DNA from: Ignavibacteriaceae bacterium
GTDB taxonomy: Bacteria; Bacteroidota; Ignavibacteria; Ignavibacteriales; Ignavibacteriaceae
Length of the DNA stretch: 38,984 bases
Direction of reading: 5' to 3'
Assembly: GCA_013360295.1 (NCBI GenBank)
Contig: JABWCL010000039.1
Location: forward strand, 1 to 38,984
Positions 17,801-37,572 of the stretch are shown here, in pieces (the stretch's first letter is position 1; each line of letters begins with the position of its first letter). Made by a program: the position numbers and the translations under genes. The notes beneath the pieces were generated by a model. It was not told the DNA's origin. It was given only the letters and a program-made list of their open reading frames with translations, and searched no databases.

Positions 17801-20315
17801 ATGAAGGAGCGAAGCGGGACTCATTATCAACGGCGGCAATCTTAAAATCTATCCTGCTGTTAACATCAAAATAATATCCGGGAGAATAGAGCCCGATGAA
17901 ATACTCGTCGGGAAGGATCGTAAATGTTGTAAGACGGTTCACAGCCCTCCCGGTCAGGTCAAATACGCTGACCCACGCGGTAGCCTCTACCGTGCAGTTA
18001 AACACCGAAACTTCGGGAGTTGTATAGACAACCGTAGCTTTCCCCTCTCCGTCAAGATATCCTGAGAATGAAAAATCCTCGAAAGATTTCCATCTCGAAT
18101 CGAGTTCACCAAATGTGTATCCTTCAAATTTCTTGGATGAGAAAATCTTTGGACGGAGTTTTACATTCATGTCAAATTTCATCTCCGCCGCCTTCGCCCC
18201 GAAAAGATATTCCGCGTCAATCGTTACAGGCACATTCATACCCCGCTGAACATATTTCTTCTCTGCCTCCACCTTTACTCTTAGTTTCTCGGGCATAAAC
18301 TCTTCGACATTAAAAAGGTAATTATCCAGCAGTGTTCCGCTGCCCGATGTTACCTCGCATACATAAATACCCGTCTGGGCATAATCAGTAAGTTTATAAG
18401 CAATCTCGAATGATCCCTGTTCATTCAGTAACTTATTGTATTCTTCGAGCACTCTTCCGCCGGGACCAAGAATTTTGCAAATGACCGGCTGGTCTGCCAC
18501 AACCCTGTAAGTTGAATTCCTGACAATTCCGCTTATAAAAACAGATTCGCCGGGACGATAGATATCGCGCCCTGAATAAAGGAACACATTATAATTCTCC
18601 GGATTTACCAGTTTCCCTGTTATATCATACCTTGAGTAATCAATCCTGCTTTCATCAAGATAGAGGTAATTATAATCAGTCTTAGTTTCCGCAGCGATGA
18701 TAAAGGGCTTTTTATCTTTCAGTTTCTCCGCGGTTCCGCGAAATGTCACCATACCATCACGGTTGGTTGTCCCTTCAAACACTGTCTGATTCAGTGAAGT
18801 AAATATTTTTACGTTCGCTCCGTTCACGGGTGATGCACCTGATATCGAATTTAAGAAAACAACTATTTCATCCTTTCCCGCTTTAGTTATTATGCCGAGA
18901 TCTGTATTGCTTAATACCTTTGTATCGCTTGCCCACGAGCCGTCAGTTGACCGGGTAGTTATTACGTATATCCCCTTATCATCGCTCTTCATCTTCTCTT
19001 TCAGGTTCACGGTAAACCGCTCGAGCCAGTTTCCCCTGTTCTCAAGTTTGATCCCTCCTGAGTAAATCTGTTCACCGAGGTTGTAAGTATTGTAATAAGG
19101 ATAATAATAATCTTCCCCCTGATTAAAATTATATGCATTCTGCGTGACAAAAGCCACTATGTTTTCTTTATTCACTCTTATTATCTCAAGCTCTGCATCG
19201 GAAATATTCACAGCGTTTATTTCGATATTGTTCAGTCCTTCGCGGGAGAGATATCTTCCCTTTTTATCCGCGAAGTTAATCGCGGGTTCAATGTCCGTCA
19301 TTGATAATTCCTGGTCATAATCCTCTTTTAACTCACCGCCGAACAAGCCCGGCATACCTTTTTTCAGCATCAGTTTTACCTGCTGTGCCGCTGAAAAATC
19401 GGTTTCCATCCGGAGAATATTACCGTCTGAGCTGAACCGAATTTCACCTGTTGAAGGGCTTGTTCTTGCCGTGTCAATCACCTCATTAGTTTTTGTAATC
19501 AGGACATAGTTTTTCGCTTTATTTTCCTGCACAGGCTGAGTAAACGCGACTTCAATCCATCCTCCCGTCCCGTCATATCCCGTGGCTGTTCCTTTTACCC
19601 GGAGTTCCTGTATTCCCGGGAGCGTCTCTTCAAAACTAACTTCTTTTTCAAGTTCACCCTTTCCGTTTGCCGGCCGGAGAGATGATTTTACTGCCGCTCT
19701 GAGTTTTAGCTCCTTATCAGTCTGCTGTAGTATTCCAAGGTCAACAATTATTTCTGATGTATTCTCCTCGTTCACAATTCTGTAGGCGGGAAGCTGTTTT
19801 CCTTCAAGGAATAGTGACAGATTTTGCTTAAGCGCCGCGGGGCTTACGGGATATGAGAAGCGAAGTTTTAATTCCGGCGCTAACTTGTAGTATTCATTGG
19901 GAATGTTTTTCCAGTATAGCTGTGAAGAGAGAAGTGTAAATGACGGTGTGTGAAAATTATAATCATCAAAGTCGGAAGAGTACTGCGAGTTTTCAAGAAC
20001 GAGGTCTGTGATTTCAGCTTCGTATTCGCTGACCGGTTCTAGTTCTTTATCCGGTACAAAAAATAGCTTATTCTGCGAAAGCCATTTATACTTTCCGGCG
20101 ATACGCGGTTCAAACCGGATATATTCCTTGTCAACCCATTCGCCGGTCATTTCGTGACTTACCAGGTCCCGGCTGAATTCAATCGTTATCACGGTTGACG
20201 TCTTCACTTCCCCCTGCGCGGAGAAGTTAATAACCTTCACTTTATTTGACTGTGAGCATCCTTGCAGAAAAAAGAATGATGCTGTTAATAACAGGGCAGG
20301 AAGCAGTTTTTTCAT
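14862..20315 (-). CDS. Bacterial alpha-2-macroglobulin lipoprotein with thioester motif
   Basis: A large periplasmic protease trap, 1817 residues. The lipoprotein signal ends FFFLQGC with lipidation at C20; residue 21 is Ser, which fits export to the outer membrane if the E. coli +2 rule applies. A long array of MG-type beta domains fills about 30-1250 (for example RPGESVFISGIVRN in an MG domain). The thioester motif GCLEQ has C1351 and Q1354, within the alpha-helical terpenoid-cyclase-like domain (about 1330-1600). The C-terminal domain has VPAGFEIENPR and a final beta domain ending VNGRGRVYVKDIPVLAVK. Retention of C-x-E-Q suggests covalent trapping of proteases, as for E. coli YfhM. A bait region cannot be pinpointed. 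It is first in the operon with pbpC; AGGATT lies 5 nt before the ATG. Confidence 0.93.
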   Translation of the reverse strand: MKKLLPALLLTASFFFLQGCSQSNKVKVINFSAQGEVKTSTVITIEFSRDLVSHEMTGEWVDKEYIRFEPRIAGKYKWLSQNKLFFVPDKELEPVSEYEAEITDLVLENSQYSSDFDDYNFHTPSFTLLSSQLYWKNIPNEYYKLAPELKLRFSYPVSPAALKQNLSLFLEGKQLPAYRIVNEENTSEIIVDLGILQQTDKELKLRAAVKSSLRPANGKGELEKEVSFEETLPGIQELRVKGTATGYDGTGGWIEVAFTQPVQENKAKNYVLITKTNEVIDTARTSPSTGEIRFSSDGNILRMETDFSAAQQVKLMLKKGMPGLFGGELKEDYDQELSMTDIEPAINFADKKGRYLSREGLNNIEINAVNISDAELEIIRVNKENIVAFVTQNAYNFNQGEDYYYPYYNTYNLGEQIYSGGIKLENRGNWLERFTVNLKEKMKSDDKGIYVITTRSTDGSWASDTKVLSNTDLGIITKAGKDEIVVFLNSISGASPVNGANVKIFTSLNQTVFEGTTNRDGMVTFRGTAEKLKDKKPFIIAAETKTDYNYLYLDESRIDYSRYDITGKLVNPENYNVFLYSGRDIYRPGESVFISGIVRNSTYRVVADQPVICKILGPGGRVLEEYNKLLNEQGSFEIAYKLTDYAQTGIYVCEVTSGSGTLLDNYLFNVEEFMPEKLRVKVEAEKKYVQRGMNVPVTIDAEYLFGAKAAEMKFDMNVKLRPKIFSSKKFEGYTFGELDSRWKSFEDFSFSGYLDGEGKATVVYTTPEVSVFNCTVEATAWVSVFDLTGRAVNRLTTFTILPDEYFIGLYSPGYYFDVNSRIDFKIAAVDNESRFAPSYSGTVTVIRKEWQTVLRKDYNGRFTYTSQKKEIIESKKDIDLAGGVKTFSFVPSKSGEYEIRVSKNGSANYVSKTIYSYGYGISTASSFQVDKEGRVEIVTDKESYNPGQKAKILITAPFSGRALVTLERDGVISSRYYDLEEKSKEIYVDIRDEYKPNVYLNVTLYRKHTIDQESPFFVAHGIKSLKVERPSDKIPVSISAPAKIKPNTTVDVTVKAGGESGVHITLAAVDEGILQIKDFRTPDPYSGIYAKRQLNVDSYNLYKLLLPELRAFHSSPGGDMMLAEQMKRRINPITSKRIKLVTYWSGIKRTAGDGTVKIRVQVPQYNGDIRFMAVAYKDGRFGSSEKNMKVADNLILEPEIPRTISSEDSLEGILNIVNTTNTAADVNLNIGVSGPVQLMSRASHAVKIQPNGSSRIKYAFKATGGIGEAKITFAAEGFAKVKEEIYLPVKPANPYSVQSGSGTIKPGQEARIKMPSDYWSNTVTTELKISRFPAIKFSRQIKSLLGFPHGCLEQTVSKAFPQLYFSHLAKAAYPEYYKNNNSVYYVKEAIRKVESMQMYDGSMTYWNGGDYSNWWSSVYAAHFLTEAKQAGFSVNEKVQERLLKYLSEKVKQPQLYDRVIYSGVTKTYKKTAVKEILYSLYVLALAGKSEPNIMNYYKARPDLLTMDSKYLLAGAFAKSGKWSIFYELLPKQYKPGLENERNFANFDSPLRADALMLNILLDSDPSNKQIPLMIKHISSSVGEYYNTQEAAFVFLALGKAASRVSENNMKVRVFSGQKEIYSYTGEDLVVTGKDLSSGELKLKGEGKGEVYYFWSSEGIRKSAASEYDSYLSVRRNYYDLKSGRMITDNLFYQGQLIVCNISLSAAGAGAENIAVTDIVPAGFEIENPRLSRLEGLNWSPQSTLMPQYLDVRDDRMVLYTNIEAGAKKDYYYILRAVNKGSFRLPAISANAMYDKEFTSVNGRGRVYVKDIPVLAVK

Positions 20316-20380: not shown

Positions 20381-22273
20381 TTATTTTGTCAGTAAAAGTT
20401 TTCCAGTTTCACGTTTATAATCAGTGCTTATCCTGTAGAAATAGATTCCTGAGGAGATGTTTCCGGCAGAGGAAAGATCCACAGTTTCCACGTACTCCCC
20501 GGCCGGCTTTTCTCCCAGGTTCTTTTCATAGATCAGTTCACCGAGAAGGTTGAAAATTTCCATCCTTACAGTCGAAATACCCCCCAGACTATAGGGTATG
20601 CTGACAAAGGGTGATGAGATGCTCACCGGATTTGGGAAACTCTGTTTAAGCATCCTTCCCGCTCTGTCTCCGGTGAAGTTCTCTTCTTCCCGTTCAACTG
20701 AAGTTATTACCACATCCGGCGATTTCTTCCTGTTTATAAGCGCCATTGCGGCATCTGCTATTATATATTTCCCCGCTTCCGGCATAGAGTTATCAATCTT
20801 TATGACTTTTCTCCTCCCTTTGGTCTGGTAAACCGAACCGAGTTTAACCCAATTGGTATTGGCGTTATCCCTCAAATTCAGAACAACAGAAGATGAGTCG
20901 TTCTGAGAATAGATAGTGTACTTTGCCGTTGAACTGAAAGCGAAATTCGGGATCAGATAAACATATACGTCAAACCACGCGTCAAAATCTATATCCATAT
21001 ACCACTCAAATGTACTGAGGGATGTATCATTCGTCCAGTAAAGATTGGGATTATAACCCTGCACAGGAACTTTAATCCAGTTTCCGGTCCGCCTTGTCAG
21101 GAGCGAATCATCTTCATTGACGATCTCAGCTTTCGGACGGAAGATAGTCCCGTTCCTGTATGGGAGCAATGCGGGTTCGGAATAAAATCTGTTCTTTATT
21201 GTATCTCCGAGTGCATTATTATTAGCAGTGAAAGCTTCATAAAAGAAAAAGCATTCCCCTTTTACGTTTTGCTGCCGGTTATAATTAACCGCGCTCACCA
21301 GGTAATCAGCGGGTATCAGGAATGACCCTGCCTTGGCAAGAACTCCCGCGTAAAAAATATTTCTTTTTGAGGGAGTTACCTGGTTATATGAATTATTGAA
21401 TTCATTTACGTAACCGAAATACGAGTCACGGTATAACTGCGGAATAAAATTCTCTGCTATCCCGGAATCAACCCACGTTTTAGAGTCCTGGAGATAATTA
21501 TCAAATCCCCACGGATAAACACTCGGCGCGGAGGAGATCAGGAGGTAGTCCCCTCTGACTTTAACTGAATCTTTCAACCGGCGGTAGAACTGGCTTAATT
21601 TATTCGCACGCCATCTCTTCCAGCCAAGATCATAATAGTTAGCGGGAGGATTATTATTGTTGTTCTCAGATTTGTAAACTGCAACTGTCGCGGAATCATA
21701 TCCCCCTTCGATTGGCATAGCAGGAAGCCTGTCATCTCCCTGAACACCGTCTACATCATAATTATCAATTACTTCGTTATGGAGGGCGATCATAAAATCC
21801 TGGACCTCAGGATTAATCCCTGACATCCAGTCAAATCCATTCTTAACCACAAGCGAACCGGCGCTGTTCTTTAATGCCCAGGAAGGCTTGCCTGCTATCA
21901 GGTGTCCCCCGTTAAGTGAGTAAGAAGAAGCAAAGCCAAACTCAAACCAGGGAACAACTTCCATCCCGTGTTTATGAGCCTCAAGTACGATCTTCTTCAG
22001 AGGATCCCTCCCCGCGAAAGTCGGCCATATCGGTTTCTGAAAGATGCTATCCATAACCCTGCTCGGATAAAGTGTATATCCTTTGTTCCACACAACAGGA
22101 AATACGAGGTTAAATCCGCGGTTAGCCAGGAACGTCATCGCGTCTTCAATGTTCTTATCCGAAAACAGAACGTACGAATCCACGTTTGTTATCCAGACGG
22201 CACGGAGTTCCTGCTTTACCTGAGTAAATACATTTATCGATAAGCAAAAAATAAAGATTAATACGTATTTCAT
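20381..22273 (-). CDS. GHL10-family glycosidase-like protein with golvesin-like and T9SS sorting domains
   Basis: Signal peptide (about 1-18), then a GHL10/DUF187 TIM-barrel domain (about 22-370). Conserved stretches are RAVWITNVDSYVLFS, VVWNKGYTLYPS, GRDPLKKIVLEAHKHGM, WFEFGFASSY, DVDGVQGDDRLP (175-184), SAPSVYPWG and FIPQLYRD. A golvesin/Xly-like beta domain follows at about 395-515 (NTNWVKLGSVYQTKG, then YIIADAAMALI). A T9SS sorting domain (about 545-630) has QSFPNPVSISS, MEIFNLLGELIYEKNL, SSGIYFYRI and GKLLLTK. E. coli DigH (YddW), as I recall a relative, cuts denuded peptidoglycan, so a wall-glycan or other glycan substrate is plausible but unproven. It is a paralogue of the gene across the repeat cluster. 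It may share a promoter with the macroglobulin gene 65 nt downstream. Confidence 0.85.
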   Translation of the reverse strand: MKYVLIFIFCLSINVFTQVKQELRAVWITNVDSYVLFSDKNIEDAMTFLANRGFNLVFPVVWNKGYTLYPSRVMDSIFQKPIWPTFAGRDPLKKIVLEAHKHGMEVVPWFEFGFASSYSLNGGHLIAGKPSWALKNSAGSLVVKNGFDWMSGINPEVQDFMIALHNEVIDNYDVDGVQGDDRLPAMPIEGGYDSATVAVYKSENNNNNPPANYYDLGWKRWRANKLSQFYRRLKDSVKVRGDYLLISSAPSVYPWGFDNYLQDSKTWVDSGIAENFIPQLYRDSYFGYVNEFNNSYNQVTPSKRNIFYAGVLAKAGSFLIPADYLVSAVNYNRQQNVKGECFFFYEAFTANNNALGDTIKNRFYSEPALLPYRNGTIFRPKAEIVNEDDSLLTRRTGNWIKVPVQGYNPNLYWTNDTSLSTFEWYMDIDFDAWFDVYVYLIPNFAFSSTAKYTIYSQNDSSSVVLNLRDNANTNWVKLGSVYQTKGRRKVIKIDNSMPEAGKYIIADAAMALINRKKSPDVVITSVEREEENFTGDRAGRMLKQSFPNPVSISSPFVSIPYSLGGISTVRMEIFNLLGELIYEKNLGEKPAGEYVETVDLSSAGNISSGIYFYRISTDYKRETGKLLLTK

Positions 22274-22543
22274 AATTTCTGAAGATTACACACTTTTAAG
22301 AGTGACATAATAAATTAAAAAAATATATTTTGAAAAGGAGAAAAAAAGGATGGATAATAATCCTCCAAATTTTATCTTAATATAACAATTCCCCATACAT
22401 CTCTATGGTTAAGATCAATCCCGGTAATGCTGGGGGTAGTTAAAAGTTATGCTGACACCGACCACTTTAATTTATATAAGTTATAATCCGTATAGGTACC
22501 TGGAATTGTTTTATTCCGGGTTTTAATCTGACATTACTATGAA
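22274..22543. other. Gene-free spacer upstream of the T9SS GHL10 gene
   Basis: First 270 bases of a 633-base gene-free stretch. It is AT-rich, with no convincing ORF, RNA gene or strong terminator. It must hold the promoter of the downstream minus-strand gene, but I could not identify a TAnnTTTG box. The remaining part (22544-22906) is repeat sequence, listed separately. Confidence 0.5.
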
Positions 22544-22568
22544 TGTAACACAGGATATTTTCCTGTGC
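22544..22568 (+). repeat. Solo REP-like palindrome (copy 0)
   Basis: A TGTAA head precedes a hairpin with arms CACAGGA and TCCTGTG and a TATTT loop. It is identical over 25 bases to the start of the next repeat unit at 22582. It stands alone, without the partner palindrome that closes the two longer units. Confidence 0.75.
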
Positions 22569-22581
22569 GAATACTAAAAAA

Positions 22582-22723
22582 TGTAACACAGGATATTTTC
22601 CTGTGCCGGCGAAGTACAACTGTACGCACTAATACAAGATCCCGAATTTGTGAAATCACAAAATTATTTTACATTCGTGACACTGTTAACCCCCCGCAGG
22701 TAAATAACCTGCGCTACATCTTT
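22582..22723. repeat. REPIN-like repeat unit 1 (two inverted palindromes)
   Basis: A 142-bp unit. It opens with the same palindrome as 22544-22568 and closes at 22695-22718 with CGCAGGT / AAATA / ACCTGCG followed by CTACA. The closing element is the reverse complement of a variant of the opening one: TGTAG directly before the stem, same 7-5-7 layout. Two stem pairs differ between the variants, and both changes are compensatory. The spacer carries a small TGTGA-AA-TCACA hairpin. It resembles REP/REPIN elements mobilised by Y1 RAYT transposases; no RAYT gene is in the window. Confidence 0.75.
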
Positions 22724-22734
22724 ATATCACCCTC

Positions 22735-22894
22735 TGTAACACAGGATCCCCCGTTAGGGACAGGTATTTTCCTGTGCCGGCGAAGTATAACTGTATCCAC
22801 AAATAAAAGCTCCTGAATTTGTGAAATCACAGCATTATTTTACATTCGTGCCGTTGCTAAACCCCCGCAGGTAAATAACCCGCGCTACATCTTT
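22735..22894. repeat. REPIN-like repeat unit 2, with 18-nt insertion
   Basis: Second copy of the unit at 22582-22723, starting 12 nt after it. Head, spacer hairpin and tail (22866-22884) are retained with scattered substitutions. It has one 18-nt insertion inside the loop region of the opening palindrome, containing CCCCCGTTAGGG. In the closing palindrome a T-to-C change turns an A-T pair into a G-T wobble when read on the minus strand, so the stem still forms. It ends 12 bases before the stop codon of the GHL10 lipoprotein gene. Confidence 0.75.
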
Positions 22895-22906
22895 TCTAAC
22901 CTGATA

Positions 22907-24034
22907 TCATTTCAGCAGCAGATCAGGAAATTTTGCCTTTTCCTTGTAAATCTCCTTCCAGAAGGTTTCACCGTATTTCTTCAGCCCTTCATAAAAAAAG
23001 AAAACTTCACCGTTTATTCCGGCTTTCCTGTTGAGTTCAATCATCTGGCGCAGGAACTTTTCATCAGGCTGGTATTTCCCGACTTTAATCAGCACACCCG
23101 GGAAAAACTTCCCCATATTTTCCTGAGGCACCTGTTTGCCGACGATCTCATCAAGGAGTTCTTTATAGGCTTCAATATTATAACGGTATAACTGAGGGAT
23201 CACCAGTTCAACGCTTCCCTGCTGAACCCACGCTGGCCAGTCCTGAAGATACTCTTCCTTTGCCCAGGGATGAATACTAGGGGACATAGATACAATTACA
23301 TTCTTATTAATGCTCTTAACTTTGTCATAAATATCTTTGGAGTACTTTGTAAGCAGGTCAGCACGCCACTGGATCCAGTCCGGATCGCGGAAATCATTCG
23401 GAGGTGTATTCCCGTTATGGGCCTTTTTGTATAATTCAACTGTGTAGGGGTCGTATCCGCCTTCAACGGGAAGCGCGGGGAGCCTGTCGTCACCCTGAAT
23501 ACCATCTATATCATAATTGGCCACGACTTCAGTAATTAAGGAGAGCATAAATTCCTGCACTTCAGGAAGGAACGCGTTCATCCATTCGAAATTACCTTTA
23601 TCAAGGAGTTCCCCTTTCCTGTCCATCGCCTTCCACTCAGGGTACTTAGCAATAATATGGCCGCCGTCACGATTGTACGATGCCGCGAAACCAAACTCAA
23701 ACCAGGCGATTACTTTCATATTTCTTTTATGCGCCTCTTCTATCAATTCTTTCAGCGGATCCCGCCCGGTGTAGAGTGTATCCATTTCAATTCCGAAATG
23801 TTTTTTCATCGTCGCGCTGGGATATAGTGTATAACCCTTATTCCACGTTACAACAAAAATAGTATTAAAATTCAGCCGGTCCAGAAGTTCAACCGCCTCA
23901 ACGATCCTTTCCCTCGAAAGCAGAACATCACTATCCACGTTTGTGAGCCATACTCCGCGTACTGCTGATACAGGCTGCGCGCACGAATTGAAAGAAAGCA
24001 GAATTAACAGAATTAACGGGAACAGGGTTTTCAT
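22907..24034 (-). CDS. GHL10-family glycosidase-like lipoprotein
   Basis: 375 residues, essentially one GHL10/DUF187 barrel. The N-terminus is a signal peptide ending SFNSC; C18 is a probable lipidation site, although F at -3 is unusual, so simple secretion is possible. Motifs match its paralogue at 20381-22273: RGVWLTNVDSDVLLS, WNKGYTLYPS, GRDPLKELIEEAHKRNM, WFEFGFAASY, DIDGIQGDDRLP, SPSIHPWA and VIPQLYRY. It lacks the golvesin-like and T9SS domains of that paralogue. A GAGGATT precedes the ATG. It lies 9 nt after the upstream barrel gene and is the last gene of the TonB-receptor operon. Predicted to hydrolyse a glycan in the periplasm or at a membrane surface; the substrate is unknown. Confidence 0.85.
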   Translation of the reverse strand: MKTLFPLILLILLSFNSCAQPVSAVRGVWLTNVDSDVLLSRERIVEAVELLDRLNFNTIFVVTWNKGYTLYPSATMKKHFGIEMDTLYTGRDPLKELIEEAHKRNMKVIAWFEFGFAASYNRDGGHIIAKYPEWKAMDRKGELLDKGNFEWMNAFLPEVQEFMLSLITEVVANYDIDGIQGDDRLPALPVEGGYDPYTVELYKKAHNGNTPPNDFRDPDWIQWRADLLTKYSKDIYDKVKSINKNVIVSMSPSIHPWAKEEYLQDWPAWVQQGSVELVIPQLYRYNIEAYKELLDEIVGKQVPQENMGKFFPGVLIKVGKYQPDEKFLRQMIELNRKAGINGEVFFFYEGLKKYGETFWKEIYKEKAKFPDLLLK

Positions 24035-24043
24035 TTCAATCCT

Positions 24044-24751
24044 CTAAAGTTTTATGTGAATTGATACTTTTGTATCGAGCATCTGGAACACACTTACATT
24101 CTCTTTATCGAGCGCAAGGGCAGGCCACAGTTCCCCGATAATCCCCTTGAAATGCGAACTTACTGTGATCGCCACAGGTTCAACTATCGGTATCTCAAAT
24201 TTTAATCCCGTATAAAATCCTCCGCTCCAGTCCATCTGTTTATTCTCAGGCACGTCGAGGTACTCCACGAATGCCGGAACTCCGCTGCCGGTCGTATCGG
24301 CAAAGAGGGAGTCCTTTACAGTACCCCGCAGGTTCTCCCATCTGTAAACACCGAAGCCGACTGAAGCCTGTGCTTTTAGAAAATCAAAATCAAGGAAATC
24401 GTACGTAAGGTTAGCAGTTAATCCGTATGCTTTAAGGTCCATCACAAGGCTCTTTAGCGGTATGCCAAAGTCCTTCTGCTCGCCGGCTACCGTGTACCTC
24501 CTCCTTACATTCATCTTTTCCTGGTTTTCTTCACTGAAGCGGATGTATTCAAACCTTCCTGACCAGTTCCAATCGGAATTCGTGCGCTCTCCCGCCACGA
24601 TCGACAAGCCGTAGCCGGGGTCATACCGGTCGCTGAGCGTACCCAGTGGAATTATATAGGATGCTTCTGCCCCGACAAAATATTTCTCCTGGGCATACTG
24701 TATCTGAGTTGTAACTGCAATTAATATGAGTGTTATAAATATCTTTTTCAT
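24044..24751 (-). CDS. Hypothetical outer-membrane beta-barrel protein
   Basis: 235 residues with a signal peptide (KKIFITLILIAVTTQIQYAQ). The mature part has alternating strands rich in Gly, Tyr, Trp and Phe: KYFVGAEASYIIPLGTLSD, AYGLTANLTYDFLDFDF, ASVGFGVYRWENL and GGFYTGLKFEIPI. These suggest an OmpA/OmpW-like 8- to 10-strand outer-membrane barrel. I recognise no named family. It follows the next barrel gene by only 3 nt and precedes the GHL10 lipoprotein by 9 nt, so it is an operon member, perhaps a pore or scaffold of the same surface complex. Confidence 0.7.
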   Translation of the reverse strand: MKKIFITLILIAVTTQIQYAQEKYFVGAEASYIIPLGTLSDRYDPGYGLSIVAGERTNSDWNWSGRFEYIRFSEENQEKMNVRRRYTVAGEQKDFGIPLKSLVMDLKAYGLTANLTYDFLDFDFLKAQASVGFGVYRWENLRGTVKDSLFADTTGSGVPAFVEYLDVPENKQMDWSGGFYTGLKFEIPIVEPVAITVSSHFKGIIGELWPALALDKENVSVFQMLDTKVSIHIKL

Positions 24752-24754
24752 ATG

Positions 24755-25471
24755 TCAATAAAGAAATGTTATTCCGAGTTTTACGCTTAATGCATCATTG
24801 AAAACGAACTGGTCAAAACCAAACTTACCGGGTGTTCTGAATATATGTCGGAATTCAGAGCCCGCGCTTATATCTATGTAATCGCCTATGCTATAGTCAA
24901 TAGTCAAACCCATTGTCACGAATATTGGGTTACCGATTTTATTCGTGGCGAAGTTCCTGTAACTGTATTCAAATGTGAATGTGCTGTCGAACCTTTTCTG
25001 CCACTCCTCCTCAAGATACATCCGGCGTGTGTAGAACATAAGCCCGCCGCCGATCTTCGGAATGATCTTTAGTCCGTCTGTTATTTTCACTCTGTGTGAA
25101 AGAGTGAGATAGACCGGATATACATCCATTTTCTGAATGGGATTTAGAGAAACAGCCAGCCCCGGGCGTTCTATCAGGTCGGAGGCAATTCTGTTTTTGT
25201 ACCTGATTTCCCAGAAATCCCAGTTCCATCTCGCGAGGGCGCTATCCTGCTGTATGCTGAATAACTGGTAACCGAAATTAAAATCAAGATCGGAGTCTTC
25301 ATCAATCTTGAATGAGATTTTTAATCCTCCGCCGACGGCATCAATTTTATTTACGTTAAGCCTTTTAACATTGGGCATTGAATAATCGCTGAAGAACTGG
25401 ACTGACCTTACTTCCTGCGCGAGGAGTGAAGCCGTAATGAATAATACAAAAAGTAATACTGTCTTTTTCAT
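24755..25471 (-). CDS. Hypothetical outer-membrane beta-barrel protein
   Basis: 238 residues with a signal peptide (KKTVLLFVLFITASLLAQ). Amphipathic strand patterns follow: GGGLKISFKID, LDFNFGYQLFSI, VYLTLSHRVKI, IPKIGGGLMFYTRR and FVTMGLTIDYSIGDYIDISAGSEF. The protein ends LGITFLY, an aromatic C-terminus of the kind used as a Bam signal. It is not clearly homologous to the barrel encoded just downstream, though size and layout match. It lies 13 nt after the PorV/PorQ-like gene in the same operon. Function unknown; outer-membrane placement is inferred. Confidence 0.7.
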   Translation of the reverse strand: MKKTVLLFVLFITASLLAQEVRSVQFFSDYSMPNVKRLNVNKIDAVGGGLKISFKIDEDSDLDFNFGYQLFSIQQDSALARWNWDFWEIRYKNRIASDLIERPGLAVSLNPIQKMDVYPVYLTLSHRVKITDGLKIIPKIGGGLMFYTRRMYLEEEWQKRFDSTFTFEYSYRNFATNKIGNPIFVTMGLTIDYSIGDYIDISAGSEFRHIFRTPGKFGFDQFVFNDALSVKLGITFLY

Positions 25472-25484
25472 TTCTGCCCTCCTC

Positions 25485-26420
25485 CTAAAATAATCCGGTT
25501 GAAACGGTTAATCGAAGCACATTCCCGAGCCTGCCGTAATTAGCCAAAGCGAAGTCAGCGGCAACCGGGAAGTTGAAATCTGCCTTCACTCCCAGCCCTA
25601 TGCTGTAAGTTTCCTCATCATAAAGGAATTTGTAACCTCCGCGAAGGTATAGCATATTCATATAATTTATTTCCAGCCCTGTATTAATCCGTTCATCGCC
25701 GTCGTTGGGATGTATCGCTTCCAGCAATCCTGTGATATTCATATCCATAAACGGTTCAGGAAGAATTTCGGAGGCCAGGCCTAACTTAAAGACCGTCGGC
25801 ATCTTAAAAGGATCGTTTACGTACTTGGCGTCCGTCCCGAAGTTCTGCATTACCGCGGCTATCCTCAAAGAACCTAATCCGGTATAATAAAGCACGCCGC
25901 CGTCAAAAACGATATTTGATGCTTTGTAAACATCAATACCTTCTTCGACATACTTAGCCTGGATACCAAACGAGAACTTATCAGTAAGCATCTTCGAGTA
26001 TGAGACCGCGGCCGCGAGCGCTTTCGCGTCGAATGTTCCCACGACTTCAAAGAATTTCTGGCTTGTGGTTACAACTGTTTTCTGCATCGAGCCGAAATCC
26101 ATCGCAACTATACCAACGCCAAATACGCCGTAGGGAGTATTATAAGTATACGTGGAAGAATAGTGAGTAATATCCGCGATATACGCCGCGTATGATACCG
26201 AAAACGAGTGCTCCTGTGAAACGAACCCCGTTCCGGCAGGATTGACAAAGATCGCGTCACTGTTAAGATCACTTAACGCGATTGAGGCTTCCGCGAGTGA
26301 AGCGGTACGCGCGCTGGCGGGCACACCGAGGAAAACAAATCCGGCGGTGGCTTTTTTGTTAAAATCCTGCGAGAATGTAACTATATTAATAAGGGCAAAA
26401 ATTATTATTAACTTTTTCAT
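25485..26420 (-). CDS. PorV/PorQ-like outer-membrane barrel protein
   Basis: 311 residues. After the signal peptide (about 1-18) comes the hallmark start of the PorV/PorQ (UPF0164) family: FVFLGVPASARTASLAEASIAL followed by SDAIFVNPAGTG (residues 28-64, in two parts here). The rest is alternating barrel strands, ending LRLTVSTGLF with a terminal Phe. In T9SS, PorV carries cargo from the translocon to the attachment complex. In Ignavibacteria many paralogues sit beside a TonB receptor and an exported protein, as here. It lies 3 nt after the T9SS-type protein gene. Whether it is the housekeeping PorV or a dedicated partner of its neighbour cannot be told from sequence; the operon setting suggests the latter. 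Confidence 0.8.
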   Translation of the reverse strand: MKKLIIIFALINIVTFSQDFNKKATAGFVFLGVPASARTASLAEASIALSDLNSDAIFVNPAGTGFVSQEHSFSVSYAAYIADITHYSSTYTYNTPYGVFGVGIVAMDFGSMQKTVVTTSQKFFEVVGTFDAKALAAAVSYSKMLTDKFSFGIQAKYVEEGIDVYKASNIVFDGGVLYYTGLGSLRIAAVMQNFGTDAKYVNDPFKMPTVFKLGLASEILPEPFMDMNITGLLEAIHPNDGDERINTGLEINYMNMLYLRGGYKFLYDEETYSIGLGVKADFNFPVAADFALANYGRLGNVLRLTVSTGLF

Positions 26421-26423
26421 TTT

Positions 26424-28517
26424 TTACCTCACTACCGCAAATTTGCCGATTTTGGTTCCGACCTTCGAGTCGACGTGGTATATATACACCCCGCTTTCTA
26501 TATATTGTCCGTAATCCGTCACCTGGTTCCAGGATACGACAGCCCCTACCCCCTCATCAACATTTATTGTTTTTACAAGATCTCCTCTTACCGTGTAAAT
26601 CCGTATCACGCACGGATTGGGAATATTAACAAACTGTATCAGGTCTGTTTCACCCGGTGAAGCCACTCCCTTGCCGAGCACAAACGGATTAGGCACAACG
26701 AGCACCTTATCAAGGTTCGCCAGCGGCGGTATTGTAGTCGTAAACCTTGTTATCTTTTTATTGGCGTATACCGATGATTCAAGTCTCGGGACGCGGTTAG
26801 TGTTGCCCGTTTCCGGGAACCTTGCCGTTGCGTCCACCGTCCAGGCTGCTTTCCCGGTATCAAAAGCTGTTAAAGCGTAGTAATAGGATCTTCCGATAGA
26901 GGCGGTCGAATCAACAAAACTGTACTTTTGGGTCGTGGAATTGAATCTGACCGGGTCACCTCTGTAAACAACTCCAATCGAATCCCACGGTCCGATCGGG
27001 AGATAATCGCTTCGATAAACTTTGTATCCGATTAAGTCAAGTGTTCCGTCATCGGGATCAGGAATCGCTTCGGTTTCATTTCCCCAGGAGATAACGTTCG
27101 CGACAAATCCTTCCGTCTCTTTGTAATAATCAACTGTAAACACAGGAGCCGCGGGCGGATCAGGGTGATTGAAGCCGTTGCCTTTAAGGTACTGATCGAA
27201 AGTGAATTTTGCTTTATCCGCCGATTCCTGGAATGACTTCAAACCGCCGGCACCAATCTGCGTAAGCGCGTTTTTATCAAGGGCAAATTTATAATCAGCT
27301 CCGTCAACAATCTCCGCCACCGCGATGACGACCGAATCGCCGGGAAGAATATTCCACGGGCCTAAAGACATCATAGACCACATCCTCGATCGCTGCATAA
27401 ATACGGTATCAGCAGAATTGGCAACATAATTTGGAGCCACCGAGGGGTTCTTTATTAATTCATACTGCGACTCTTCGGTGTTCTTATTCGAAAGCGGCCC
27501 TCCGAAGTCAAACGCGTCATCACCGGCGCTCCAGCCGTAGGCATTCACAACCGTTGATTGTCCGTTTTTATTGGGCGAGGAGTAAACAAGCCTCAGCCCA
27601 ACATAACCTGGGGCAAGCCATTCACCTGAAGGCTGTCCGTTAACTATCCTTCCGAGTGAATTCGAAAATCCGTAGCTTGGTTCGACTTTGGAAGTTTTCA
27701 GAAAATCTCCCGCCCTCCCCCATATCATTCTTCGGGCAATATCATAAAAGAACCAGGTGTTTTTAGCGCCGGGAGTCTCGGTCGGGAAAAGCACGTTCCA
27801 CGCCCTTGAATTTGAGTGAAGAGCATAATTAAGCATCGCGTAGAAATCGTAGAGTGTATCGGGGATCGTCTTCGCGCGGTCAGTATCTCCCTGAGTGACA
27901 AAATAAGTTTTTAATTCCGGGGAGATGTTCTTAATGACATAACGGTAGAGTACATAATTTTCATTACGCATCGAACCACTCCACTGGTGGGCTGACCTTG
28001 TCATCCTGACCGGCAGTTGCCGCTGAATGCCGAATTCATCGCTGTATAGTACATTATATTCCCAGCTGCTTTCGATCACTTCTTCGCCATTCTTCGCGTC
28101 TTTCTTCAGCCAGTAGTTCTCACCGTTCTTAAACAGGTGCGTGTTTTTGGTTATTTTATATTTAGCACTGTTATCAGGCGCGATCGTATTTCCGGCAATT
28201 GACCAGTCTTCAACAACGAGCACGCTGTCGGGCGCTTTCTTTGCACCTACAATAAACCCTCCGGTTATCATATAAGAAGGAGCGCCGCCGATATTTTCGG
28301 TTATCCAACTCGGTTCAAATCCCGGCCAGTCAAGACCGATTCCTATCCTTCGCCAGTTATTAAAACTCGGGCCGATCTTTCCGTTAAATATGCTTTGCCA
28401 TAATTTCCCCCGGTTAAAATTCAGCGCCTGTGACTCGAACTGAGCGTAGAGTGTTTGCTGTAAGAATACTACAGTGAATAAAGCTATAATGTAAGTTGTC
28501 ATTCTTTTCATTTTCAT
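26424..28517 (-). CDS. Secreted surface protein with FN3-like region and T9SS-type C-terminus
   Basis: 697 residues with a signal peptide cut near A25. The N-terminal part (about 27-440) is a conserved-looking unknown domain with WPGFEPSW and SGSMRNENYVLYRYVIKN. An FN3-like region (about 450-570) includes IGYKVYRSDYLPIGPWDSIG and SYYYALTAFDTG. The last ~90 residues form a sorting-like domain: VVPNPFVLGKG, CVIRIYTVRGDLVKTI, YIESGVYIYHVDSK and IGKFAVVR. It lacks the usual NYPNPFNP spelling but keeps the overall layout. GGAGTA is only 2 nt from the first ATG and 8 nt from the third codon, also ATG (28511), so the true start may be 28511. It sits between a TonB receptor (9 nt) and a PorV-like gene (3 nt), so it is probably surface cargo working with them. 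Confidence 0.75.
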   Translation of the reverse strand: MKMKRMTTYIIALFTVVFLQQTLYAQFESQALNFNRGKLWQSIFNGKIGPSFNNWRRIGIGLDWPGFEPSWITENIGGAPSYMITGGFIVGAKKAPDSVLVVEDWSIAGNTIAPDNSAKYKITKNTHLFKNGENYWLKKDAKNGEEVIESSWEYNVLYSDEFGIQRQLPVRMTRSAHQWSGSMRNENYVLYRYVIKNISPELKTYFVTQGDTDRAKTIPDTLYDFYAMLNYALHSNSRAWNVLFPTETPGAKNTWFFYDIARRMIWGRAGDFLKTSKVEPSYGFSNSLGRIVNGQPSGEWLAPGYVGLRLVYSSPNKNGQSTVVNAYGWSAGDDAFDFGGPLSNKNTEESQYELIKNPSVAPNYVANSADTVFMQRSRMWSMMSLGPWNILPGDSVVIAVAEIVDGADYKFALDKNALTQIGAGGLKSFQESADKAKFTFDQYLKGNGFNHPDPPAAPVFTVDYYKETEGFVANVISWGNETEAIPDPDDGTLDLIGYKVYRSDYLPIGPWDSIGVVYRGDPVRFNSTTQKYSFVDSTASIGRSYYYALTAFDTGKAAWTVDATARFPETGNTNRVPRLESSVYANKKITRFTTTIPPLANLDKVLVVPNPFVLGKGVASPGETDLIQFVNIPNPCVIRIYTVRGDLVKTINVDEGVGAVVSWNQVTDYGQYIESGVYIYHVDSKVGTKIGKFAVVR

Positions 28518-28526
28518 TACTCCTTC

Positions 28527-31500
28527 CTAAAACCCGATTCCAAGAGTAAAGAAAACCTGCCGCGGTATATTTTTATACGTCTTGAACGCGGCGATCCTGT
28601 AACTCTTCAATTGTGTTTCAGTCTTGTCTATCGGATTATCCATCGTTATCCCCTTTTCAACCCAGAAGTTAAGGTCATCGGCGCTGAGCGGGGTGAGCCA
28701 GCGGTTATTGAATACGTTCATTACCCTTACGCCAAAAAGCAATTTGCGGCCGCTCGGGAACTTGAACTCACGTATAAAATTAAAATCGAAATTTGATTCG
28801 AGCGGGTAACGCCTGTTATTGGTAATTCCGCTTACATCAAAGGTGGTGACGTAAGTAAACGGCAGGCCTGTTTGCGCGGCGTAGGTCAATCCCATCACGC
28901 TGTTTTCAAGCAGGTAATAGTTCATAAATCTCGGGCCTTCTCCCTCTCTCATAATGTACTGAACGAGCGCCCTGAATGAATGCGTGCGGTCGCTTCCGCT
29001 TAAAAATTCACCGGTGAAGTTCCTTGCTTCGCTCCTTGTATTTTCCGGATAAATATAAGCCTGTCCGTAATTTCCCTCAGTGGTCTGCGAAAGCGTGTAG
29101 CTAAGCCTGTATGACCAGTTAGTTACATTTACCTTGTCAAGTACGACTTCAAGTCCGGTAGTGGAGCCGAAAGCATTGTTATTATAAGATGTGTAAGGAT
29201 ATAGAGGGATATCATCCGACGTATAGCCTACGACGCCTCCCTGCGGTCCGAGTGATCCGGTGAAGGAAGCGTAACGCTGAGTTCCGACCTGGCTCACTCT
29301 GTCATTATAATAGAGCGCTATATCGAGCCTGTGGCTGTCTTCGATAAGCTGCTGTAAACCGAACTCATAATTAATTGTCTTCTTAAAATCAAGATTAGGA
29401 TTACCTCGAACCAGCCATCCCTGGTCAGTCCTCTGAGAAAGCGCCTGGGTGAAGATCGGCATAGAGGCAAAGTGCCCATACTGAATTCTGAACGCGGTGC
29501 TCTCTCCGATAGGGAAGGAAATACCAACCCTCGGCATCAGGATAAATTTAGTTGATGAAGATTCGGTAAGCGGATTGCCGTAAGGAGAATCCAGTTTCCC
29601 CGGACCGTTTATCCCGGGATAAAACGGATTAAAAGGGTCAATCGGTGACTGGCTCTGGAAGTTATACATTTCCCCCCTTAAGCCAAGGTTGGCGATCATC
29701 CCCTCATATTCCATCTTGTCCTGAATATAAAACGCAAGATTAAGCGGATAGGCGTGATAATACTCAGCGTAACCGCTGCGCACCACGTAAGTATTCGCAG
29801 TAAAAGAAGAGTTCACGGCGTGGTTGAAAAGATCCCAGTAATTGACTCTTATTCCCGCTTTGAACAGGTTCGTGGGGAGCACCTGGTTTGTGTAATCAAC
29901 GCTGAGGCTTGTGGTGGTGTTACGTGAATCCTGATAATAATTTGTTGATAAATTGAACGGGCGCCTGAAGAGTGAGCCTTCCCACCAGGCACCGTCGCGA
30001 AGCACGAACCCTCTCGCGTCAAGCGATGAATCAAGCCTGTCATTTTCCTGGGTATTCCCCGCAAGATAAAGATAGGGGAGCTGGTAAATTTCATTCTGAG
30101 TGGTCAGCGTCGCCTCAATAAAGGAAAGATTATTAATCGTATAGACATAGTTAATACTCTGCGCGATCGTTTGTTCTGTCCTCACGGGATCAACAGTGAC
30201 AAGATATTTAGTGGATGCACCCGAGGGTACAAATGCAATTCCCGACCACCGGATATCATCTGAACCGCTCCAGATTCCTCCGCGGTACTTCTGGAAAGAA
30301 CCCATATACTTTATCTTATGGTCTTTGATTGGCTGATATGTCAGATTCAGAATATAATTCTGATAAACCTGGATTTTCTCCGGGGTTGGGAGGCGCGTAG
30401 GGTTAGCTCTGTATTCACCTGAGAAATAAAAACGGAGAGTCTGCGGATCCTGCCCCAGCGGGCCGCCAATTCCGATAAGATATCTGTTATATGAGTACTT
30501 TGTATAATCATAAACTCCGAGCACGTTATCATCCGCGGGTGAGTGGTTTTTTACCCAGAGGTCATATGCCCACTGGATCTCCCTGTCAACAACCTGGTTC
30601 CACAAGGCAGTGTCGGCAGATGTCGCAGAGGCCGATTTATATTTATCATACAGCCAGTTGTAACGGTCTTTGTTACTCGACTTATCCAAAAGCCCCAGGT
30701 CCCTGATAAAACTTTCCTGGTTGCGCTGCGCGTACCAGTAATTAATATCCCCCCACCTCTGCCATTCGAAACTGTTCCTGTTATAAAGATATTCGCCGAA
30801 ATGATACTGCCCCGCGGGACGGTGTTCCATTCTGAATTCACCGCTGATCTTCGGAGTTCCTTCCTTCAATATTACTTTTACCACACCTGCCTGCGCGTTA
30901 CCGTACTCGGCAGAGAAACCGCCGGTGATGAGCTGAAGCTGCTGCACGCCGAGGGGGTTAACGTCATATTTCCAGGAATTGTTCGCTTTCTCCGATCCCG
31001 GTGTGGATGCGGGTCCGCCTGTAGAGGTATTAACCTGCTCAACACCATTGATCTGGAAGTTCACCTCGTACGCTCCGGAACCTCTTACAGTATAAGTACC
31101 CGTTGCCGTTTTCTGAAATCCCGCCGAAAGGTCAAGAGTGCCTCTTAATCCCTCAATTGGCGCGGCTTTGATCTGCGACTCCGATATTGTGGTGGAGGTT
31201 GAAGTCTGGTCTTTAATGATCTTCGGGCGCTCAGCGGTTATTACTACCTGCTCGGTTTGTATCGCGACATCCGATATCTTAAAATTCACTTCCACTGTCC
31301 GGTCAACAACAACATATACGTCTTTAACGGTGAGTTTATTGTAGCCGATCATACTTGCGGTTACCCGGTATTCACCGGCGGGTATGTTTATAACAATGTA
31401 ACGCCCGTTTACGTCGGTAACTCCACCGAGCCTCGTTCCTTCAATGATGACATTGGCGCCGATAACAACCTCGCCGGTGGATGCATCAGTAACCTTACCG

Positions 31501-31604
31501 GTTATTTTGCCGGTCTGGCTCTGAGGAAAAAGGATAATGGAAAATAAAATGAAAAAAGAAAACAGGCGTAAGTAAGAAAAGCTGAAAGTATTTGTGGTAT
31601 GCAT
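28527..31604 (-). CDS. TonB-dependent receptor with carboxypeptidase-regulatory-like N-terminal domain
   Basis: 1025 residues. Signal segment about 10-28. The CarboxypepD_reg-like domain is at about 32-105 (GKITGKVTDASTGEVVIGANV, then GGVTDVNGRYIVINIPAGEY), followed by a linker and plug (about 115-250: QVVITAERPKII, TVRGSGAYEVNFQINGVEQV, GGFSAEYGNAQAGVVKVILKEG). The 22-strand barrel ends QVFFTLGIGF with the expected terminal Phe. The layout is of SusC/OmpA-linked type, but no SusD is present; an exported T9SS-type protein takes that position. It heads a six-gene minus-strand run with gaps of 3-13 nt reaching 22907. The imported or exported ligand is unknown. A TAACTTTG promoter-like box lies about 30 nt upstream; no clear Shine-Dalgarno is seen. 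Confidence 0.88.
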   Translation of the reverse strand: MHTTNTFSFSYLRLFSFFILFSIILFPQSQTGKITGKVTDASTGEVVIGANVIIEGTRLGGVTDVNGRYIVINIPAGEYRVTASMIGYNKLTVKDVYVVVDRTVEVNFKISDVAIQTEQVVITAERPKIIKDQTSTSTTISESQIKAAPIEGLRGTLDLSAGFQKTATGTYTVRGSGAYEVNFQINGVEQVNTSTGGPASTPGSEKANNSWKYDVNPLGVQQLQLITGGFSAEYGNAQAGVVKVILKEGTPKISGEFRMEHRPAGQYHFGEYLYNRNSFEWQRWGDINYWYAQRNQESFIRDLGLLDKSSNKDRYNWLYDKYKSASATSADTALWNQVVDREIQWAYDLWVKNHSPADDNVLGVYDYTKYSYNRYLIGIGGPLGQDPQTLRFYFSGEYRANPTRLPTPEKIQVYQNYILNLTYQPIKDHKIKYMGSFQKYRGGIWSGSDDIRWSGIAFVPSGASTKYLVTVDPVRTEQTIAQSINYVYTINNLSFIEATLTTQNEIYQLPYLYLAGNTQENDRLDSSLDARGFVLRDGAWWEGSLFRRPFNLSTNYYQDSRNTTTSLSVDYTNQVLPTNLFKAGIRVNYWDLFNHAVNSSFTANTYVVRSGYAEYYHAYPLNLAFYIQDKMEYEGMIANLGLRGEMYNFQSQSPIDPFNPFYPGINGPGKLDSPYGNPLTESSSTKFILMPRVGISFPIGESTAFRIQYGHFASMPIFTQALSQRTDQGWLVRGNPNLDFKKTINYEFGLQQLIEDSHRLDIALYYNDRVSQVGTQRYASFTGSLGPQGGVVGYTSDDIPLYPYTSYNNNAFGSTTGLEVVLDKVNVTNWSYRLSYTLSQTTEGNYGQAYIYPENTRSEARNFTGEFLSGSDRTHSFRALVQYIMREGEGPRFMNYYLLENSVMGLTYAAQTGLPFTYVTTFDVSGITNNRRYPLESNFDFNFIREFKFPSGRKLLFGVRVMNVFNNRWLTPLSADDLNFWVEKGITMDNPIDKTETQLKSYRIAAFKTYKNIPRQVFFTLGIGF

Positions 31605-37470: not shown

Positions 37471-37513
37471 AAGAACTCCTTTTTTAACAAAAAAATGTTT
37501 ATTTTTAAAAACA

Positions 37514-37572
37514 GAATAGCCCATTTCATTAATTCGAATGAAATACTAGGTGACCAGCCTTAAGGACTATTC
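37514..37572 (-). ncRNA. Candidate structured RNA element (leader or complex terminator)
   Basis: On the minus strand GAATAGTCC (37572-37564) pairs with GGGCTATTC (37522-37514): nine pairs, one G-U. Inside, ATTTCATT/AATGAAAT forms an 8-bp hairpin, and AGG...CCT around GGTCACC may form a third arm. The tract TGTTTTTAAAA follows. It lies between the propeller lipoprotein gene and the start at 37470, so it is either an unusual terminator or a 5' leader. No known riboswitch was recognised. Confidence 0.4.

Follow-up and report, generated by a model that had tools for sequence, protein, structure and literature searches.

At positions 22907–31604 of the window, the 38,984-nt stretch of Ignavibacteriaceae DNA under study, six open reading frames (ORFs) lay on the minus strand, separated by just 3–13 nt (9, 3, 13, 3 and 9 nt in order of transcription). 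The ORF coordinates confirmed this compact six-gene cluster as given in a preliminary description of the DNA. A second gene of the GHL10 family (GHL10b) is the seventh gene of the unit, which extends the earlier six-gene reading (Table 1). Promoter-like and terminator-like sites at the cluster were no more frequent than in shuffled sequences, and the Bacteroides-type promoter pattern was no commoner than chance. As neither scan improved on shuffles or chance, it is from the spacing only that the cluster genes are suggested to form one transcript.

Table 1 Features of the cluster (feature, position in the window, strand, length and predicted properties)
TonB-dependent receptor	28527..31604	-	1025 aa; CarboxypepD_reg, Plug and outer-membrane barrel domains; energised channel for import (predicted)
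Cargo, surface protein	26424..28517	-	697 aa; supersandwich + FN3-like + T9SS/PorZ-like C-terminal domain (predicted)
PorV/PorQ-family outer-membrane barrel	25485..26420	-	311 aa; predicted dedicated cargo anchor
Small predicted outer-membrane barrel 1	24755..25471	-	238 aa
Small predicted outer-membrane barrel 2	24044..24751	-	235 aa
GHL10a, glycoside-hydrolase-like	22907..24034	-	375 aa; PF02638; possible lipoprotein
Repeat-bearing gap, GHL10a/GHL10b	22274..22906	.	two repeat pairs
GHL10b	20381..22273	-	630 aa; PF02638, Golvesin_C, T9SS sorting tail; seventh cluster member

The proposed TonB receptor was borne out, with CarboxypepD_reg, Plug and beta-barrel domains all found (PF07715, 32.3 bits, cut-off 23.9; PF14905, 36.2 bits, cut-off 27). 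It had no SusC/RagA match at E ≤ 0.1 in NCBIfam, a library that includes the SusC/RagA models TIGR04056/04057, and an S-layer model was the sole listing. The 311-aa barrel matched the PorV/PorQ family model (NF033709, 169.4 bits, cut-off 90) and fell below both equivalog models, those of PorQ (NF033711, 108.1 bits, cut-off 220) and PorV (NF033710, 56.9 bits, cut-off 250). Another PorV-family copy (NF033709, 320 bits) adjoined PorU on contig 34; that the cluster gene is distinct from this PorU-linked copy supported the earlier suggestion of a dedicated PorV-like partner.

The 697-aa cargo protein was modelled from a 70-member alignment (pLDDT 91.7, pTM 0.88), which superseded a poor earlier model from 11 orthologs (pLDDT 54.6). 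The predicted structure, from which the domain limits are taken, consists of a supersandwich domain (residues ~25–450), an FN3-like domain (~460–560) and a T9SS/PorZ-like C-terminal domain (~600–697). When a second structural aligner was applied to the predicted model, the supersandwich aligned with cellodextrin phosphorylase over 276 residues (Z 19.9, 3.6 Å), and the 50 structural matches listed were sugar phosphorylases, GH116, GH15, GH65 and similar enzymes. Foldseek returned whole-chain TM scores of at most 0.26 by query among the matches listed, with PorZ first, so that the supersandwich call depends on the second aligner. An (alpha/alpha)6 catalytic domain was absent from the model, in which only beta-strand domains follow helix 418–447. 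There was no SusD fold among the structural matches listed for the model, which proves no absence, and a PDB sequence search with the 11-ortholog cargo profile gave no match at E ≤ 1. Because supersandwich domains are present in enzymes of many specificities, the fold by itself is no proof of glycan binding.

The cargo had been described as a secreted protein with a sorting-like tail, and a tail of this kind is present in most of the 70 family members, with matches to TIGR04183 (50 members), PorZ (49) and PorU (44) at E ≤ 0.01; the window protein itself stayed below threshold for TIGR04183, the T9SS type A tail (17.1 bits, cut-off 23). The type B C-terminal domain, TIGR04131, was not among the seven families listed for these 70 members at the same E-value. 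Of the type IX secretion system (T9SS), the translocon SprA (1003 bits) and the sortase PorU (976 bits) were found in the source genome. Within the order, 40 of 164 genomes had a single match to the cargo profile and the other 124 had none. Across the phylum, 129 of the 296 genomes sampled had matches to the cargo-family profile, many of these matches spanning the C-terminal third only. Two cargo-family members scanned against Pfam matched no family.

Neither of the two small proteins (238 and 235 aa) reached the cut-off of any Pfam or NCBIfam family, the second having a sub-threshold match to BBP2 in Pfam. All 45 orthologs of the first ended in Tyr, and all 41 orthologs of the second ended in Phe, Leu or Trp. 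Their earlier description as unrecognised small barrels stands as regards the lack of a family, and the C-terminal residues lend the barrel label indirect support, by which both may be outer-membrane barrels. Both GHL10 proteins scored far above the PF02638 cut-off of 27.9 bits (GHL10a, 238.9 bits; GHL10b, 184.9 bits), and GHL10b additionally carried Golvesin_C (PF25275, 54 bits) and a TIGR04183 tail (32.8 bits, cut-off 23). The preliminary description of GHL10a as a glycosidase-like lipoprotein was supported as to family; a lipobox-like pattern near the N-terminus occurred in just 7 of 35 GHL10a proteins, and the FNSC motif of the window protein, picked out by eye, lies outside that pattern. 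Lipoprotein status is accordingly not conserved and is at most plausible for the window protein. The nearest solved sequence relative of GHL10a was Cwp19 (5oq2, E 4.7e-16), whose putative active-site Asp196 aligned with D183; Gln295 and Tyr297 were kept, and Tyr197, Arg132 and Ser368 were not.

GHL10b followed GHL10a within 50 nt in 23 of the 27 loci having both as neighbours, and the spacing was 633 nt in the window versus 110 nt in a genome of the same genus. The gap in the window contained a pair of 130-nt repeats that are 88% alike and a pair of identical 27-nt repeats; pieces were also found on contig 25 when 381 kb of source-genome loci were compared. On the 3' side of the operon lay an alpha-2-macroglobulin-like gene, recognised by eye, and a gene of PBP1C type.

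Conservation of gene order was assessed in 113 loci, which were reduced to 60 distinct ortholog loci by collapsing duplicates with identical last 200 cargo residues; ten loci with no parsed cargo (L079, L082, L127, L163, L175, L180, L194, L207, L216 and L219) and L240, whose cargo is truncated by a contig end, stood outside the counts. The receptor was upstream of the cargo in 55/55 testable loci and the PorV-type gene downstream of it in 50/54. Two of the four loci scored as lacking PorV (L148 and L151) had a gap of ~1 kb with no assigned gene at its position, and may carry a copy that is broken or was not parsed. Small barrel 1 was present in 43/50 testable loci, small barrel 2 in 39/47, GHL10a in 33/45 and GHL10b in 22/33. 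Loss of gene order among relatives had been named beforehand as one result that would count against a joint system; the order was kept across the 60 loci. The idea of a conserved multi-component unit held for the receptor, cargo and PorV genes, which recur together, and not for the six-gene set, since both small barrels and GHL10a are absent from some lineages.

The core of the cluster is this triad of TonB receptor, T9SS-type surface protein and PorV/PorQ-family barrel. Eight triads, the window copy included, and one rearranged version were found in the source genome, with cargos of 638 to 1200 aa. A PorV-family gene was found at a distance of 7 kb or less from ten of the 29 TonB plugs in this genome, where ~1.2 were expected, one of the ten plugs (contig 30) not belonging to a triad; distance limits of 4, 7 and 10 kb gave 1, 10 and 10 plugs, the low figure at 4 kb arising because a triad is longer than that. 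The triad was also present in 15/15 selected paralog loci of the order (L225–L239, chosen as long partial matches and not at random) and in 16/20 loci outside it (L250–L269, one per family of the phylum, taken from the families among the profile matches listed, with families having weaker, unlisted matches unrepresented). The latter count was made over all ORFs, as longest-ORF calling took antisense frames in high-GC loci. Since gene order is kept in distant relatives, the arrangement is not due to chance.

Pairwise distances among receptor, cargo and PorV proteins were correlated over 30 triads (r 0.83–0.88; 0/2000 permutations each); L227, L229, L250, L251, L258, L261, L262, L267 and L268 were left out of this set because of partial or overlapping ORFs. 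Within the eight same-genome triads the correlations were r = 0.67, 0.63 and 0.68 (5, 94 and 23 of 5000 permutations, respectively). The last 330 residues of the cargo co-varied with PorV.

The locus had been likened to a Sus-like one in which SusD is replaced. No match to either SusD model (PF07980 and PF14322) was obtained in the source genome, a Bacteroides control being positive, and no SusD model was listed for the six cluster proteins in Pfam or NCBIfam. This part of the comparison was sustained; the receptor, having no SusC/RagA match in NCBIfam, makes the locus Sus-like in logic and not in membership. Replacement as a strict rule did not hold. Among 223 genomes outside the class, 52 had both the cargo family and SusD, 17 the cargo family only, 90 SusD only and 64 neither, a co-occurrence above expectation (odds ratio 2.2, p = 0.016), whereas within the class SusD was found in 7/60 genomes with the cargo family versus 6/13 without it (p = 0.009). 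Strict mutual exclusion was rejected, as the in-class trend reverses outside the class. A genome was taken to have the cargo family when its profile matched at E ≤ 1e-20, a level at which many matches span the C-terminal third only, so the figures inside and outside the class include proteins alike in the tail region as well as full-length members.

Genes for glycan metabolism were seen near a number of triads, having been selected by eye and then checked against Pfam, with no tally over all loci. GHL10 occurred in 9 of the 20 loci from outside the order. Single chosen triad loci had GH9, GH35, GH38, GH106, ROK, PfkB, SSF or ABC permease genes nearby, while NanE, GH94, DUF5009, NamZ, GH38, SSF, GxGYxYP, GlcNAc 2-epimerase and NAGPA were found around orthologs. 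We infer that the substrate is a glycan. An amino-sugar glycan is the leading guess, and a weak one, based on the occurrence of NanE, GH94, DUF5009, NamZ, GlcNAc 2-epimerase or NAGPA within ~20 kb in some relatives.

Taken together, we consider it fairly probable that the cluster encodes a SusD-independent, TonB-energised system for surface glycan capture and uptake, in which a T9SS-exported protein sits on its own PorQ/PorV-like barrel. The type IX secretion system, of which SprA and PorU are encoded in the genome, would carry the cargo across the outer membrane, and the PorZ/PorU-type C-terminal domain of the cargo would be retained and held on the surface by the adjacent barrel. The supersandwich domain, lacking a catalytic barrel, would bind an oligosaccharide and hand it to the TonB receptor, the role that SusD plays for SusC; this step is suggested by fold, gene order and co-variation. 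Receptor, cargo and PorV-type barrel would form a complex, with the receptor transporting the glycan. GHL10a and GHL10b may cut the polymer, outside the cell or in the periplasm, and small barrels 1 and 2 may serve as accessory outer-membrane parts.

Cell-wall housekeeping is a rather unlikely alternative, in which GHL10 enzymes would cut the glycan strands of peptidoglycan and the receptor would retrieve the fragments for turnover or recycling. It shares the importer part with the best explanation and differs in substrate and role. The cargo is unmatched in 124/164 genomes of the order, which would be odd for a housekeeping function, and single paralog triads adjoin GH9, GH35 or GH106 genes; on the other side stand a NamZ gene close to one relative's operon and the alpha-2-macroglobulin-like (by eye) and PBP1C-type genes after the window operon. 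DigH of E. coli is a GHL10 protein. According to one paper DigH hydrolyses denuded strands, the word GHL10 being absent from that text (PMC12288456). Cwp19, the nearest solved GHL10 sequence, is titled a lytic transglycosylase (PMC6016235). GHL10 membership does not fix the specificity, however: the Cwp19 structure paper gives the substrates as not determined (PMC5765458), and a starch-using glycosidase is named in connection with a paper mentioning GHL10 (PMC9967864).

A surface adhesin or coat module, with a structural or adhesive cargo anchored by its PorV-type partner and a receptor that moves or energises assembly and imports no glycan, appears improbable. Triad cargos do vary from 638 to 1200 aa, as surface proteins may, and type B adhesins of F. 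johnsoniae are steered by cognate shuttle barrels according to one report (PMC12618676). However, the neighbours checked, themselves a choice made by eye, were glycosidases, sugar kinases, regulators and transporters, and the predicted fold of the cargo is that of sugar enzymes.

PorV/PorQ proteins are FadL-like barrels, and the PorV-family gene might encode a conventional FadL-type channel through which a hydrophobic compound passes, its cargo neighbour being incidental, but this is very improbable given the pairing with a tailed cargo in eight same-genome triads, 15/15 paralog loci and 16/20 far loci, and the co-variation of PorV with the last 330 cargo residues, which is hard to credit to accident.

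The preferred reading, a glycan importer, places the cluster beside several known systems. As in SusCD importers, a TonB receptor and a predicted outer-face partner are clustered with glycosidases; in contrast to them, the receptor has no SusC/RagA match in NCBIfam, the genome has no SusD by two models, and the receptor's partner combines a T9SS-type tail with a predicted supersandwich fold. Sus loci carry further binding lipoproteins, and at their site some distant relatives' triads are followed by a TIG-domain protein; the helper profiles for TIG proteins (seeds L226, L259, L260, L263 and L264) and propeller-like proteins (seeds L226, L258, L260, L263 and L264) match at those loci by construction. 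As in the N-terminal supersandwich of GH94, GH116, GH15 and GH65, the predicted fold extends over ~276 residues (Z up to 19.9), whereas in the cargo an FN3-like domain and secretion tail take the place of the (alpha/alpha)6 catalytic domain. GHL10a shares PF02638, the aligned Asp196/D183 and the kept Gln295 and Tyr297 with Cwp19, and differs from it in being clustered with a TonB receptor and in the three residues not kept.

The likeness to PorZ:PorQ and PorU:PorV of P. gingivalis lies in a surface protein with a PorZ/PorU-like tail whose gene adjoins that of a PorV/PorQ-family barrel. Here, in contrast, gene order links the pair with a TonB receptor, the pair exists in several copies, and the predicted surface domain is a supersandwich instead of two beta-propellers or a sortase. 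Anchoring of PorU and PorZ by PorV and PorQ has been suggested (PMC5562754), and their C-terminal domains are stated to stay uncleaved (PMC11285876). Type B CTD adhesins of F. johnsoniae with an SprF/PorP-like shuttle also have a cargo gene followed by its own barrel gene (PMC12618676), but the present barrel is of the PorV/PorQ family, a TonB receptor is included and the families listed for the 70 cargo-family members comprised no type B domain. In that paper, known type A substrates are said to share one PorV and to have no dedicated partner, which counts against a cargo-specific anchor. No description of the receptor/T9SS cargo/PorV triad was found among the matches listed in the open-access literature (titles and abstract openings).

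We tentatively raise the possibility that the triads represent a second class of TonB-dependent glycan importers, one that does without SusD, in many Bacteroidota lineages, with a non-catalytic, T9SS-delivered supersandwich protein as the lid that binds the substrate, a dedicated PorQ/PorV-like barrel as its permanent anchor in the membrane and the T9SS as assembly route. If true, this would suggest a route of oligosaccharide uptake for Bacteroidota lineages in which SusD proteins are scarce or absent, would assign a function to a large, unnamed family of cargo proteins (129/296 sampled genomes, many by matches to the C-terminal third) and would mean that the T9SS serves as an assembly route for nutrient importers.

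The preliminary description had proposed a six-gene outer-membrane operon, and all six open reading frames were confirmed in position and orientation: they lie on the minus strand, separated by 9, 3, 13, 3 and 9 nt. The first product was identified by Pfam and NCBIfam as a TonB-dependent receptor, the third belonged as proposed to the PorV/PorQ family (169 bits against a cut-off of 90; 108 with the PorQ model and 57 with the PorV model), and the sixth was, as anticipated, a GHL10 protein (Pfam; GHL10a). For the 697-residue second protein, proposed as type IX secretion system (T9SS) cargo, a T9SS tail was matched only below threshold in Pfam and NCBIfam, and the two small predicted barrels matched no Pfam or NCBIfam family above its cut-off. 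A second GHL10 protein (GHL10b), which carries a T9SS tail as well as a Golvesin_C domain, was found downstream of the six. The window makes up one entire contig; its genome, of 4.46 Mb, is rated 100% complete.

Locations of features, with gene recovery in relatives (present/testable, 60 distinct loci) and neighbouring gene pairs separated by 50 nt or less
Feature	Location	Strand	Gene recovered	Pairs, with gene below
Receptor	28527-31604	minus	55/55	53/57
Cargo	26424-28517	minus		50/53
PorV-type gene	25485-26420	minus	50/54	41/41
Barrel 1	24755-25471	minus	43/50	41/41
Barrel 2	24044-24751	minus	39/47	27/34
GHL10a	22907-24034	minus	33/45	23/27
GHL10b	20381-22273	minus	22/33	
Repeat-bearing gap	22274-22906			
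Alpha-2-macroglobulin-like/PBP1C pair	12525-20315			
1032-aa protein	34426-37524			
Gap-repeat pieces	contig 25 (L084), 12724-17016			
SprA homolog	contig 30, 24428-30820			
PorU	contig 34, 38399-41719			
Tandem cargo paralogs	L254, 4770-11568			

GHL10a and GHL10b are separated by a gap containing two 130-nt copies 88% alike, two identical 27-nt copies and a terminator-like stem on the minus strand; among 381 kb of the genome compared, pieces of this gap were also found on contig 25, and a dispersed repeat element seems to have parted the operon here. GHL10b is followed after 65 nt by genes for a 1817-aa protein, alpha-2-macroglobulin-like by eye, and a PBP1C-type protein (Transgly, Transpeptidase, BiPBP_C), a pair missing from the same place in a genome of the same genus.

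Cargo matches were obtained in 40/164 genomes of the order, one per genome (E ≤ 1e-30), and in 49/391 genomes sampled from the class, two of which had two matches. The 49 named loci encoding a relative were mostly labelled Ignavibacteria, its subgroups or Kryptonia, and several just Bacteroidetes/Bacteroidota; the closest relative came from an Ignavibacteriales MAG (89% identity). One of these loci (L192) was labelled Bacillota, perhaps through a binning error. Operon counts were based on 60 distinct loci from 113 examined, 10 of which were unparsed. A ~470-aa T9SS-tailed protein, absent from the window, was encoded upstream of the receptor in 27/40 testable loci. Nothing but this protein, the receptor, the cargo and the PorV-type gene was present at three Kryptonia loci (L188, L189, L195) and at L205 and L213, which share their layout; L160 likewise had neither barrels nor GHL10 genes. 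These loci suggest a core of receptor, cargo and PorV-type gene.

This triad recurs. Thirteen PorV-family genes scored above cut-off in the window's genome, and eight, including the window's, were the third gene of a triad with order and strand kept; the contigs given for the eight are 5, 18, 25, 43, 47, 68, 70 and 72, and contig 1 carries a rearranged version. With the tail profile of the window's family, the seven other triad tails scored 36-73 bits, compared with 13-28 bits for other matching proteins in those loci. The triad was present in 15/15 selected paralog loci of the order. Outside the order (20 loci, one per family), receptor and cargo were adjacent in 17, with the PorV-type gene in 16; one of the four loci lacking it was cut by a contig end. 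In nine of the 20, the same-strand cluster further includes a protein similar to the L263 TIG-domain protein, together with a propeller-like and a GHL10 protein (Pfam-checked at one locus, L263), so a link between triad and GHL10 extends beyond the order. The cargo-family profile matched 129/296 genomes sampled from the phylum (E ≤ 1e-20), many matches covering the C-terminal third only. At L254, three tandem cargo-family paralogs were found with no receptor or PorV-type gene within the 16 kb fetched.

Pairwise distances of cargo (last 330 residues), PorV-type barrel and receptor were correlated across 30 triads (r = 0.83 to 0.88; matched or exceeded in 0/2000 permutations). Within the window's genome, the eight paralogs gave r = 0.67 for cargo and PorV (5/5000 permutations), 0.63 for receptor and cargo (94/5000) and 0.68 for receptor and PorV (23/5000); since these come from one genome, species history cannot be the cause.

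A cargo model built from 70 sequences was confident (pLDDT 91.7, pTM 0.88). At 8-12% identity, residues 25 to about 450 matched a supersandwich plus linker helix as found in cellodextrin phosphorylase (Z 19.9), GH116 and bacterial glucoamylase (18.6 each) and chitobiose phosphorylase (16.5); according to the aligner, a model that lacks a clear match usually reaches a best Z of 7 to 8. In Foldseek the top rank went to PorZ, ahead of the phosphorylases of chitobiose and cellobiose, and whole-chain TM-scores were low. The model contained no helical catalytic barrel after the supersandwich, which is followed by an FN3-like domain and then by a C-terminal domain of seven strands. Among the 70 members, the tail matched PorZ in 49 (best E 5.3e-10), TIGR04183 in 50 (8.6e-6) and PorU in 44 (5.6e-6). 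At least two type IX secretion parts, an SprA homolog (1003 bits) and PorU (976 bits), are present in the genome, PorU adjoining a PorV-family copy that is not part of a triad. The tail of the 1032-aa protein, whose T9SS match covers positions 3-55 of 75 and ends abruptly, may be truncated or frameshifted.

From this anatomy we infer the four steps of a SusD-independent glycan capture and uptake. The barrel proteins PorV and PorQ have been proposed to retain PorU and PorZ at the cell surface of P. gingivalis (PMC5562754), and the C-terminal domains of PorU and PorZ stay rather than being removed (PMC11285876). As a PorZ-like tail here adjoins a PorQ/PorV-like barrel, the analogy suggests that the cargo would be permanently anchored, not shuttled. 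A surface sugar-enzyme domain lacking its catalytic part, next to a TonB receptor and glycosidases, further suggests a binding lid.

As to substrate, the nearest solved sequence relative of GHL10a is Cwp19. The putative active-site residue of Cwp19, Asp196, corresponds to D183 of GHL10a in the alignment; GHL10a also retains Gln295 and Tyr297 of Cwp19, but not Tyr197, Arg132 or Ser368. Near the operon in relatives we found NanE and DUF5009 (sequence clusters in seven loci each, one Pfam-checked apiece), GH94 directly upstream of the receptor (two relatives), NamZ (one relative), and GlcNAc 2-epimerase and NAGPA (one checked locus each, 10 kb or more away). None of these amino-sugar genes lies within the window. 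A conserved cluster divergent from the operon (L161, L170, L172, L177, L186 and others) may be a new amino-sugar catabolic route: at 13 loci each it encodes a 491-aa protein without a Pfam family and a hydantoinase/oxoprolinase-like protein, an FAD oxidoreductase being encoded at 11 and NanE at 7.

As to the proposal that SusD had been replaced, the window's own genome encodes 29 TonB plugs and gave no match to PF07980 or PF14322 (Bacteroides control positive). SusD is not missing from the whole class, PF07980 occurring in 13/73 sampled genomes, and SusCDE is reported for Melioribacter roseus (PMC3534657). Within the class, SusD was rarer with the cargo family (7/60 genomes versus 6/13 without), but outside it the two co-occurred (both in 52/223, odds ratio 2.2, p = 0.016), which argues for an alternative that could coexist with SusCD. 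The system would be Sus-like in working logic and falls outside the SusCD family. The operon noticed earlier is real and the finding larger than described, with gene order kept in relatives and the triad recurring. The literature searched contained no description of this importer-like design, of which the window's operon is one member, the design being widespread rather than a local oddity.
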